From Thermoplasmata archaeon (lineage in GTDB: Archaea > Thermoplasmatota > Thermoplasmata > Lutacidiplasmatales > UBA184), in NCBI GenBank assembly GCA_030039825.1, contig JASHUV010000010.1:1-9539 (forward strand): DNA of 9,539 nucleotides, written 5' to 3'. Below are positions 1 through 2,107 of this stretch, piece after piece. Positions within the stretch are counted from its first letter, which is position 1, and each line of letters opens with the position of its first letter. The notes under the pieces are model-generated. The model did not search any database. It was not told the DNA's origin and saw only the letters and a list, made by a program, of their open reading frames with translations. The translations under genes were made by a program, and so were the position numbers.

Positions 1-788
1 AGGGCCCGTCCGAGGAGGAGGTAGGCGACCGTGGGGAGGGCGAGGAGGAGGACCCCGACGAGGGCGAGCTCGCTCGCCGCGGTCGTCTCGGCGAGGCTCT
101 GGGCGAGGACGTAGACCTCGACCTCGACGGTGTACTGCCGAGCGCCGCCGATCAGGAGGGGGCCGGCGAACGCGAGCGCCGAGAAGAGGAAGGTCAGGAG
201 GGCCCCGGCGGCCGCCCCGATGAGGGAGGGCCGCGCCCACACGGTCCGGTAGACCTCCCCCGGCCCGCCGCCGAGCGTCGCCACGGTCTCCTCGAGCTCG
301 ACCGGCGCGCTCTCGAGCCCGACGAGGGTGAACAGCGCCACGATCGGCGCGTTGAACGCGGTGTTGATCGCGACGATGCCGCCGAGCCCGCCCCCGAGGA
401 CGGCGAGCGCGGGCCACGCAGCGGACGCGTACCCGCCCGGGCCGAACCACGCGACGACCCCGTCGACGACCGCCACGGTCGGCAGGAGGAACGGGACGAG
501 GAGGAGCGCGAGGAGGGCGGAGCGGCCCGGGAAGCTCGTTCGCCCGAGGAAGACCCCCACGGGGTAGCCGACGAGGAGGGAGGCGGCGGCGCTCAGGCCC
601 CCTTGCGAGAGCGAGTTCGCGAGCGCGAGCCGGTCGAGCGGATCGGAGAGGACGCCGGCGAGACCCGCGACCCCACCGCCGTCGGCGAGCCCGCGCAGGA
701 AGAGGAGCGCGACCGGTAGGACCGTGACGGCGACGACGAAGAGGAGGACCGGGGCGATCCAGAAGGGATCACCCTCGCCGCGCCTCAC
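1..788 (-). CDS. thiP: Thiamine/TPP ABC transporter permease ThiP (partial, cut by left edge)
   Basis: Membrane permease that would carry thiamine, TMP or TPP inward from the binding protein ThiB, powered by an ATPase (ThiQ) expected beyond the left edge. I translated it directly: from a GTG at 788 the frame stays open to base 1, giving 262 residues without a stop. Residues 10-31 form a first membrane helix, with further helices near 66-82 and 88-112. The cytoplasmic coupling (EAA) loop lies at about 160-190, with E166/E167 and ATLGGGP resembling the EAA...G consensus. The motif FNAPIVALF before the loop and QYTVEVEVYVLAQ after it align with the first half of bacterial ThiP (FNLPLA, TTIELAIYQAL). 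ThiP of E. coli has two such halves of about 260 residues, so the second half should lie outside. The GTG overlaps the thiB stop as GTGA, indicating translational coupling in one operon. Confidence 0.88.
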   Translation of the reverse strand, partial: MRRGEGDPFWIAPVLLFVVAVTVLPVALLFLRGLADGGGVAGLAGVLSDPLDRLALANSLSQGGLSAAASLLVGYPVGVFLGRTSFPGRSALLALLLVPFLLPTVAVVDGVVAWFGPGGYASAAWPALAVLGGGLGGIVAINTAFNAPIVALFTLVGLESAPVELEETVATLGGGPGEVYRTVWARPSLIGAAAGALLTFLFSALAFAGPLLIGGARQYTVEVEVYVLAQSLAETTAASELALVGVLLLALPTVAYLLLGRA

Positions 789-1945
789 GGCCCGAACGCG
801 TCGTAGAGGGTCTGCCACTCCGAGAGCCAGCCCGGCAGTCCGGCGACGATCTCCGACGGGGGGATCGCGCCGTTCAGGTCGACGGCGCCGGTCGGGTCCG
901 CGGCCCAGCCGAAGCTCGACGGGAGCGCGACCGTGTCGTTCGCGGGGTACACCCACTCGTTCGTCGGGATCTCCGATTGGACGGGGCCCTCGAGGAAATC
1001 GTCCTCGAACGCCTCGGCGAGCGCGAGGTGGGGCGTGCCGCGGACGATGCCGATCCCGTAGACCGTCCGCCAGGCAAACGTCGTCCCGTTGCCGTGGAAG
1101 AGCGTCGCATTGAAGCTCGGCGGCCCCGAGCCCGTGAGCGCGGCGGCCGGGTCGGTGCTGTAGCTCACGAGCATCGGCGGGGCGTTCGGGCCCGTCGTGA
1201 ACGCGTCGTACGCGTCCGACCAGGAGTCGCTCACGCGCAGCGAGGGGTCGGCGGCCCGCCAGAAGTCGGTCCAGTTCTCATGGAGGACGGACTGGCTGTA
1301 GGCGATCTCCGCGAGCAGGAACTCCTCGCCCGTGATGTCGGTCTCCGGATCCTCGATCATGAGGGCCCGGGCCCACGTCGCGTTCGCGGCGACCTCCTCG
1401 AGGGAGAAGTTCCGGACGGCCCCGCTCGTCACCGAGTCGAACGACGGGGTGTAGTCGATGCCGAGGTAGCCGTACTCGTACGGCGTCACCGAGTGGTCCG
1501 GGGCGATCTCCGCCTGCAGCGCGGCCGGCTCGTCGGCGACCTCGGGGGGCGTGTACGGGAGCAGGACCCCGGCCGCATCGGCCTGGGGCGCGGTGATCTC
1601 GTCGAGCCCGATGACGAGGTCGATGCCGACGGAGCCCTTCTCGTCGATGAGGAGGCTCGAGAGCGTCCCGGAATAGCAGTCGAGGTTCACGTGGACGTGG
1701 TGGGCCGATTCGAACCCGTCGACGATGGCGGTCAGGTTGGCGGAACCGCACCCGCCGAACAGGCTCTCGTAGGTGACGATCGTGAGCGTCGCCTCCTCGT
1801 TCGTTAGGTAGGCGTTGAGCCCGATCGCCGCGAGGACGACGAGGAGCGCGACGCCCGCGAGCGCGAGGACCCGCCCGAGGCGGCCCGGGCGGAACCCGCG
1901 GCGCGGCGGACGCGCCGGGCCGGCCGACGCCGGGCCTACGGCCAT
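785..1945 (-). CDS. thiB: Thiamine/TPP-binding protein ThiB of an ABC importer
   Basis: Extracytoplasmic binding protein that captures thiamine or its phosphates for ThiP. The mature domain starts near residue 53 with LTIVTYESL. It then shows the family landmarks in order: SSLLIDEKG and DLVIGLDEITAP, YGYLGIDY, an EDPETDITG segment (PRTS in E. coli), SWSDAYDAF, LVSYSTDPA, SEIPTNEWVYPAND and a C-terminal WLSEWQ. All match E. coli ThiB (TbpA) in order and spacing. Length 386 exceeds the usual 330 because of an Arg/Pro-rich N-terminus followed by a hydrophobic helix at 25-46. There is no lipobox cysteine, so it is probably anchored by an uncleaved helix or cleaved by signal peptidase. C66 and C90 could form a disulfide. 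Seven N-X-S/T sequons (N70, 179, 188, 224, 279, 286, 336) fit a glycosylated surface protein. The ATG at 1945 follows a GGGGGAGGGG ribosome-binding site under TPP-riboswitch control. Confidence 0.92.
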   Translation of the reverse strand: MAVGPASAGPARPPRRGFRPGRLGRVLALAGVALLVVLAAIGLNAYLTNEEATLTIVTYESLFGGCGSANLTAIVDGFESAHHVHVNLDCYSGTLSSLLIDEKGSVGIDLVIGLDEITAPQADAAGVLLPYTPPEVADEPAALQAEIAPDHSVTPYEYGYLGIDYTPSFDSVTSGAVRNFSLEEVAANATWARALMIEDPETDITGEEFLLAEIAYSQSVLHENWTDFWRAADPSLRVSDSWSDAYDAFTTGPNAPPMLVSYSTDPAAALTGSGPPSFNATLFHGNGTTFAWRTVYGIGIVRGTPHLALAEAFEDDFLEGPVQSEIPTNEWVYPANDTVALPSSFGWAADPTGAVDLNGAIPPSEIVAGLPGWLSEWQTLYDAFGP

Positions 1946-1972
1946 CCCCTCCCCCGGTGCCCGGGGGGAGCT
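1946..1972 (-). promoter_or_regulatory. Expression platform: SD-sequestering hairpin of the TPP riboswitch
   Basis: In the - strand transcript, AGCUCCCCCCGG (1972-1961) is followed by GCA and CCGGGGGAGGGG, then the thiB ATG. CUCCCCCCGG pairs with CCGGGGGAG (one bulged C), burying the G-rich ribosome-binding site just upstream of the start. The same AGCUCCCCC (1972-1964) is perfectly complementary over 9 nt to GGGGGAGCU (2076-2068), the 5' strand of aptamer helix P2. The two pairings are mutually exclusive. With TPP bound, P2 holds its strand and the hairpin hides the SD (off). Without TPP, the P2 strand can take the anti-SD and free the SD (on). The base complementarity is seen; the switching order is inferred. 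Confidence 0.75.
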
Positions 1973-1984
1973 CTCAGCCGACCC

Positions 1985-2080
1985 ATGGCGTTCCCTTCGC
2001 GGGGATTACCCCGATCAGGTTCATGGGGTCGGCAGGACCGAGGTCCTGCCCTCTCAGCCGGTGCATTAGCTCCCCCAGCG
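1985..2080 (-). promoter_or_regulatory. TPP riboswitch (THI element) aptamer
   Basis: The - strand transcript carries the conserved TPP aptamer cores in order. These are GGGGGAGC (2076-2069, P2 5' strand), a short P3 ending in GGC, CUGAGA (2057-2052), a variable hairpin P3a (2050-2031, perfect 9-nt arms), GACCCC (2030-2025, P2 3' strand), ACCUGAUC (2020-2013), P4 GGGGUAAUCCCC (2012-2001) and GCGAAGGGAACGC (2000-1988, P5/L5). CUGAGA and the GAUC/GGGAA segments are the pyrimidine- and pyrophosphate-sensing parts of the thi-box. P1 is not well defined: I find only weak pairing between the base before 2076 and the end near 1988. It reads into thiB about 40 nt downstream, so it matches its target, a thiamine uptake operon. 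Confidence 0.93.
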
Positions 2081-2101: not shown

Positions 2102-2107
2102 CTATAG
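2102..2107 (-). promoter_or_regulatory. Possible TATA box for thiB
   Basis: CTATAG on the - strand, about 25 nt upstream of the riboswitch core. If used, transcription would begin near 2077-2080, right at the P2 strand, leaving almost no room for helix P1. The alternative is the TTAAAT at 2157-2152, which would start the RNA near 2127 and allow a 5' extension. The sequence alone does not decide between them. Confidence 0.35.

Follow-up and report, generated by a model that had tools for sequence, protein, structure and literature searches.

How does an archaeon that carries a TPP riboswitch ahead of a thiamine transport gene convert ligand binding into control of that gene? Members of the TPP family RF00059 have been noted in euryarchaeal species, in an account that, in the part considered here, gives no archaeal expression platform (PMC2258182); nor did we find a described expression platform for archaeal TPP riboswitches in the open-licence literature. 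The locus examined below lies in a GC-rich stretch of 9,539 nt (the window) from a soil archaeon of the Thermoplasmata (GCA_030039825.1, contig JASHUV010000010.1).

The preliminary description of this DNA placed a TPP aptamer in the leader of thiB, and a covariance-model search bears this out. In a cmscan of a 301-base stretch, RF00059 aligns over its full model (1-105) to minus-strand positions 2086-1974 with 54.1 bits and an E value of 3.8e-10. Because that score is 0.2 below the gathering score of 54.3, a scan at gathering level lists nothing; relatives in the genus score up to 66.9 bits. The conserved TPP core (CUGAGA, ACCUGAU, GCGnAGGGA and GGGGAGC) is present in the sequence and in the cmscan alignment, and the aptamer stands upstream of a thiamine gene, whose thiB-type protein exceeds the cutoff of TIGR01254 and falls far under that of TIGR01276, the stricter thiB model. 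By these marks the window's leader is a TPP riboswitch, with TPP binding itself predicted. Its main elements are the following.

2102-2106, minus strand: TATA-like box of the thiB transcript, with the transcript start predicted near 2079.
1992-2079, minus strand: TPP aptamer (RF00059, 54.1 bits), with a P1 of about 2 bp (2079:1988 and 2078:1989) from pair counts over 94 leaders.
2068-2076, minus strand: 5' strand of P2, GGGGGAGCU, read from the sequence as the partner of 1972-1964 in the window's lineage.
2025-2028, minus strand: 3' strand of P2, CCCC (cmscan alignment).
1994-1996, minus strand: 3' strand of P4, AGG within GCGAAGGGA, at the position of the GGAGG of other families and a putative weak Shine-Dalgarno (SD) sequence for the leader ORF.
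785-1945, minus strand: thiB, thiamine ABC transporter substrate-binding protein (TIGR01254, 95.9 bits, cutoff 93.4).

Matches to the TPP family occur in 74 of 78 genomes of the window's genus, 97 of 106 of its order and 193 of 400 of its class. Leaders were extracted by covariance-model coordinates, giving 103 anchored leaders, of which 77 belong to the genus, 23 to six further genera in its family and 3 lie outside the family. Their positions are numbered from u, the base that lies 5 nt beyond AGGGA of the aptamer (1986 in the window). Three genomes have two TPP leaders each (G003, L033/L034; G071, L044/L086; G079, L046/L094), and L046 is identical to the G077 leader (L045) over the printed stretch, so that mixed bins are possible. 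One of these paired leaders, L086, keeps the start codon described below and lacks the early frame-1 stop.

The aptamers of this sample appear to have very little P1. In counts over 94 leaders that ignore kinship, pairs on the P1 diagonal exceed shuffles at -4:u-2 (86, with 72 expected), -3:u-3 (76, with 72 expected) and -2:u-4 (33, with 18 expected), which cuts P1 to 2-3 possible pairs adjoining P2. An initial idea, that the aptamer has no P1 at all, was dropped because these counts favor a remnant of 2-3 bp. The most AT-rich 5-mer starts -34 to -31 from GGGGAGC in 79 of the 94 leaders, and since this box begins about 28-29 nt before the remnant pairs in most leaders, the transcript probably starts at the remnant itself. 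The divergent neighbor, pdxS, has a TTTAA box at 2153-2157 (region 2153-2182), and because this box lies about 25 nt ahead of the pdxS ATG, the pdxS mRNA is likely leaderless; one intergenic region serves both a vitamin B6 and a vitamin B1 gene. The sequence CGGCUGAGAG occurs twice on the minus strand, at 2060-2051 in the aptamer core and at 1980-1971 within the leader ORF.

What lies between the aptamer and thiB? In 95 of 100 family leaders, AGGGA is followed at a distance of exactly 5 nt by an ATG or GTG: 76 of the 77 genus leaders have a start at u, always AUG, as do 19 of the 23 leaders from other genera (12 AUG, 7 GUG). The leaders without AUG or GUG at u are L055, L098, L102, L104 and L103, the last of which has UUG. 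On a quick tree of 96 ThiB proteins, the second and third bases of the codon show no change and the first changes twice (A/G); in the flanks, positions -5 to -1 change 8-19 times and positions +3 to +9 change 18-31 times. In the window, this codon opens the following frame.

1936-1986, minus strand: uORF-B, the leader ORF, 16 codons (MGRLRAPPGHRGRGWP), with AUG at 1986-1984 and stop UAG at 1938-1936, overlapping the thiB start.

The preliminary description had the aptamer and the hairpin over the SD sequence right, and had overlooked the leader ORF, whose start codon stands 5 nt downstream of the aptamer and whose end overlaps thiB, along with the conserved frame-1 stop. Across the sample, the leader ORF has 12-16 codons in 84 of 94 leaders and 17-21 codons in 10, with one further leader truncated at a contig end. 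The start of thiB could be placed in 93 of 95 leaders, the exceptions being L033 and L097 at contig ends; it is at +41 in 60, +40 in 17, +44 in 9 and +38 in 7. Among ORFs no shorter than 700 nt (300 nt at a contig end), the one whose start is nearest to +42 was taken as thiB, a choice that leans towards closeness to the end of the leader ORF. With starts so placed, the leader ORF stops -5 to +23 nt from the thiB start in all 93, with an NUGA overlap in 69; the window's leader ORF ends with UAG 7 nt past the thiB start, not with NUGA. As a control, random thiB codons are followed by a stop within 25 nt in 15.2% of cases in the frame of the +41/+44/+38 class and in 1.6% in that of the +40 class. 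In the +40 class, where thiB is one base closer, all 17 leader ORFs stop within 23 nt though their frame is nearly stop-free in thiB; these leaders are related, and the thiB frame changes just 6 times on the tree. A frameshift fusion of leader ORF and thiB as the common product was ruled out because thiB occurs in two frames relative to the ORF. The putative SD sequence for the leader start is in P4, which in the window's family reads GAAGGGA or GCAGGGA, a weak SD. A pattern for the 16S tail matched in 3 of 61 genomes, and the one locus scanned was not an SSU gene by Rfam.

A second short frame, lying at +1 to the leader ORF (frame 1), ends just past the leader start.

1974-2024, minus strand: uORF-A, a candidate aptamer-internal ORF in frame +1 to uORF-B, with AUG at 2024-2022 (start uncertain) and stop UGA at 1976-1974.

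Of the 95 leaders with the start codon, 94 have a frame-1 stop no later than +16 (+10 in 75, +13 in 14, +16 in 3 and +1 in 2), as UAG in 44, UGA in 34 and UAA in 16. Stops that early are found in 0 of 95 leaders in each of frames 0 and 2 and in 10.9% of dinucleotide shuffles, and none of the five family leaders without AUG or GUG at u has a frame-1 stop by +16; L055 and L104 have neither the start codon nor the early stop. The stop changes its identity among UAA, UAG and UGA at least 28 times on the tree, and in the +10 class bases +11 and +12 change 16 times each, never yielding UGG. It also accounts for the NTA at codon 4 of the leader ORF in 44 of 95 leaders; in thiB, NTA makes up 1.3% of 8,670 NTN codons. 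The conserved L or V at codon 4 had been considered as selection on the peptide, which the NTA bias rules out, as does the fact that +10 to +12 is the frame-1 stop in 75 of 95 leaders. Could the stop be a by-product of pairing? This reading was ruled out because the stop lies outside the pairing strand in CUCUC-type leaders, and it also fails in g29, where the UAG stays while the aptamer side changes.

An in-frame start for frame 1 (AUG, GUG or UUG) exists inside the transcript in 95 of 95 leaders, mostly as an AUG in loop L5 (82 of 95), although the presence of that AUG could stem from the aptamer's own conservation. The P4 base that would create a frame-1 UAG is never U in these 95 leaders; L055, which does have U there and hence the UAG, is without the start codon and the later stop. 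The stop pattern, the in-frame starts and the avoidance of U in P4 argue that frame 1 is probably read from inside the aptamer. Such reading might feed the leader ORF or might only guard thiB. A complementary presence of starts at -20 and -38 (Fisher 4e-10) was dropped because it comes down to 4-5 independent pairs on the tree and a sign test gives nothing.

Within the leader ORF lies a strand that can pair with two partners.

1964-1972, minus strand: competing strand AGCUCCCCC (anti-aptamer / anti-SD), inside uORF-B (sequence and cross-leader pairing tests).
1949-1955, minus strand: GGGGGAG, hairpin partner and SD-like sequence before thiB (sequence).

Both complementarities that had been reported for the window are found in its sequence: AGCUCCCCC (1972-1964) is the exact reverse complement of the P2 strand GGGGGAGCU (2076-2068), and CUCCCCC (1970-1964) that of GGGGGAG (1955-1949), which makes the hairpin over the thiB SD. 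In shuffles that preserve dinucleotides, AGCTCCCCC appears in 41 of 20,000 versions of the 60 bases after the aptamer, and 139 of 5,000 contain a stretch of 9 nt or more that is perfectly complementary to the 5' half of the aptamer. Given the GC-rich sequence, the 9-nt complementarity of the window is unusual, not overwhelming.

The broader claim, that a strand 3' of the aptamer has two alternative partners, the aptamer itself and the bases ahead of thiB, extends to other species. Among 88 distinct leaders, the strand region (u+8 to u+32) pairs with its own aptamer half at a mean of -22.95 kcal/mol, versus -21.03 with those of other species (sd 0.24), and with its own SD region at -16.20, versus -13.45 with those of others. 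Neither preference was reached in any of 2,000 permutations, nor was the aptamer preference in 2,000 permutations within genera, although all such permutation tests are inflated by relatedness. The preliminary choice of P2 as the partner does not carry over to the family: a 9-nt complement to P2 exists in 4 of 93 leaders and one of at least 7 nt in 10 of 93, and GGGGGAGC (2068-2076) is identical in 93 of 93, which leaves no variation there for covariation. The favored partner is P3 in 55 of the 88 leaders, J3-2 in 18 and P2 in 15, with at least 21 changes of label on the tree. In the window it is P2, and this match is not exceptional: the window's strand has a stronger predicted pairing with 37 of the 88 aptamer halves than with its own. 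In a set of 36 leaders, the pairings that pass mononucleotide shuffles (at most 5%) number 5 for P2, 18 for J3-2 and 14 for the SD. Across the compared leaders the competing strand is general and co-adapted, and its partner drifts among P2, P3 and the CUGAGA core. The window has one more near-complementarity, between CAUGGGUCGGC just 3' of the aptamer (1987-1977) and GCCGACCCCAUG in the region of the P2 3' strand (2033-2022), a possible second competing pairing.

Do predicted structures favor a switch? For 1940-2080, the minimum-energy fold (-70.9) pairs P2 with 1972-1964, and the centroid (-70.2) has the SD hairpin with P4/P5 and without P2. Extending the stretch by about 14 nt at its 3' end shifts the minimum-energy fold to one that combines the aptamer with the SD hairpin, although the pair probability of P2 across that ensemble averages just 0.23, and P2 and P4 can be imposed only at a cost of 1.0 kcal/mol. 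The ranking of folds thus depends on the chosen ends, and the predicted energies are close. Over 93 leaders, forcing P2 and P4 has a median cost of 3.7 kcal/mol. With the aptamer forced, the thiB SD becomes clearly less open in 33 of 93 and more open in 8, and the uORF-B start, with little change, less open in 16 and more open in 9; in the window, the SD is unpaired with probability 0.46 when free and 0.20 with the aptamer forced. Ensemble folding of this kind, which treats secondary structure and leaves aside the TPP-bound tertiary structure, gives the switch weak support at best.

How, then, might the aptamer match, the fixed start codon, the stop at thiB, the frame-1 stop, the competing strand and the short P1, all of which are present in the sequence, work together? 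We infer both switching and translation of the leader ORF. The reading that we consider probable is that TPP lowers ThiB by keeping ribosomes off a relay ORF, which would be coupled to thiB by termination-reinitiation; since this ORF opens 5 nt from the aptamer and extends across the thiB start, it is the likely route by which TPP switches uptake off. Transcription would begin about 4 nt before GGGGAGC, hence the near absence of P1. Without TPP, the strand inside uORF-B would pair with the 5' half of the aptamer (with P2 in the window's lineage), and the aptamer would be open, such that a 30S subunit could load at AUG 1986. The translating ribosome would melt the hairpin between 1970-1964 and 1955-1949, stop at 1936, past the thiB start, and restart at 1945. 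With TPP, P2, P4 and P5 would lock, the AAGGGA beside the AUG would be held in P4, uORF-B would go unread, and the freed strand would close the hairpin over the thiB start.

The preliminary description proposed a more direct two-state switch, in which TPP forms P2 and the freed AGCUCCCCC buries the thiB SD; in the absence of TPP, AGCUCCCCC would be taken up by P2 and ribosomes would load at thiB directly, with no role for the short ORF. The exact complementarities in the window, the near-equal energies of the two folds, the lower openness of the window's SD once the aptamer is forced, and the co-adaptation of the strand with both partners across species all agree with such a switch. Direct initiation is possible, because 54 of 93 leaders have GGAG or GAGG within the 14 nt upstream of thiB; the other 39, however, lack it, and the 9-nt pairing with P2 is confined to the few leaders counted above. 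In the window, just 2 nt separate GGAGG from the AUG of thiB. A spacing of 2 nt between SD and AUG is poor for direct initiation, and the arrangement fits reinitiation better. The direct switch also leaves the fixed start codon, the conserved stop at thiB and the frame-1 stop unexplained, and we regard it as unlikely. Perhaps instead the leader ORF is repressive, its ribosomes competing with thiB initiation or its peptide sensing something, with TPP tuning the outcome. A uORF inside the metE aptamer of M. tuberculosis does lower expression (PMC11260477, in the part considered here), and many of the leader peptides share a loose S/P-A-G pattern near codon 8. The shared part of the peptide coincides with the pairing strand, however, so that RNA can explain it, and a stop-start overlap is an arrangement for coupling rather than repression; a repressive role seems quite improbable. 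Control of transcription, through termination or stability and with the translation signals incidental, is very improbable: the E. coli tbpA riboswitch is reported to control mRNA level as well as translation (PMC11487190, in the part considered here), but the conserved features in our leaders (start, stop and overlap) are translational, and a simple bacterial-type scan, which covers archaeal terminators in part, found no terminator-like site in 1850-2200.

The relay through uORF-B that we prefer may have a further stage, which we advance only tentatively. Ribosomes might also load inside the aptamer, at an AUG of L5 or J2-4 (uORF-A), terminate at the frame-1 stop shortly beyond the uORF-B start, step back to uORF-B and then pass to thiB, so that three frames would be relayed. 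In that case the RNA that TPP folds would also be the RNA that ribosomes have to cross, and the two would be in competition. More broadly, the TPP aptamer of Thermoplasmata might itself serve as a ribosome-binding site gated by its ligand, P4 supplying the Shine-Dalgarno strand.

Other families bear on the broader idea. A further 80 loci outside family f1 were considered, a non-random choice among the matches listed in the class scan, with their long ORFs known as reading frames and not as identified genes. Among the matches listed, GGAGG is the P4 sequence of 61 of the 80 loci, and in 60 of those loci it is accompanied by the start codon. Family f19 has a start codon 2-8 nt after the aptamer in 52 of 54 listed loci, which opens a long ORF directly in 20 and a short ORF in 32; the codon is present in 10 of 10 listed loci of f31, with a long ORF in 9 and a short one in a locus of 215 bases. 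The long ORF itself starts there in 29 of the 64 listed f19 and f31 loci. Again among the matches listed, 26 of the 27 testable short ORFs of f19 end -12 to +4 nt from the start of the next long ORF, compared to 1 of 28 control frames that end at such a start. Families f25 and f26 seem to use another platform, since 10 of their 11 listed loci (L107-L115, L125 and L126) have GCGUAGGGA and most have no start codon right after the aptamer (4 of 9 f25 loci and 0 of 2 f26 loci, among the matches listed, have one). Several f25 leaders have a CAGCC(C) strand complementary to GGCUG of the aptamer.

How does this locus relate to known systems? Termination-reinitiation at ATGA or TGATG overlaps was shown for gene pairs of H. 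volcanii and E. coli (PMC6728339, in the part considered here); the H. volcanii overlaps are likewise of this kind, but they join gene pairs and do not lie in a riboswitch leader. The E. coli tbpA (thiBPQ) riboswitch, like that of the window, places a TPP aptamer before the same kind of gene; it turns translation off, and its free-state helix disrupts the aptamer and exposes the SD, much as is proposed in the model preferred here (PMC11487190). There, P1 competes with an anti-P1 strand, whereas P1 in the window's family does not exceed 2-3 bp and the competing strand targets P2, P3 or J3-2; the term uORF is absent from the main text of that paper, as far as it is covered here.

The closest precedent is the B12 riboswitch of M. 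tuberculosis ppe2 with its uPPE2 ORF, described in PMC11260477 (as above, in the part considered). Both systems have a short out-of-frame leader ORF after an aptamer, under riboswitch control in ppe2 and probably so here, and in both a purine-rich strand of the aptamer is predicted to sequester an anti-TIR strand when no ligand is bound. The ppe2 ORF overlaps its gene by AUGA, and the gene is made mainly by termination-reinitiation; in the window, coupling is proposed. Within the family, a short ORF with a conserved start is found in 95 of 100 leaders and a stop at the gene start in 93 of 93. The differences are also clear: ppe2 involves B12 and a bacterium, the window TPP and an archaeon; the ppe2 ORF is served by an SD of its own 3' of the aptamer, while the start codon of the archaeal ORF lies within 5 nt of its aptamer, with P4 itself in the SD position. 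Unlike ppe2, the archaeal arrangement is conserved over a family, and a similar one recurs in another family.

The kind of system is therefore known from ppe2 of M. tuberculosis. As far as could be found in the open-licence literature, the ligand, the domain of life and the start codon right at the aptamer are new, and so are the double overlap of frames and the return of a like arrangement in a second family. What emerges is a concrete and conserved archaeal TPP platform, in which the aptamer appears to gate a start codon 2-8 nt downstream, which begins a long ORF directly or else a tiny one from which ribosomes would move on to the long ORF. The competing strand seems to retain its job while switching its partner within the aptamer, and the comparison with the single mycobacterial B12 switch suggests that the riboswitch-uORF relay originated in Archaea too, and in more than one form.
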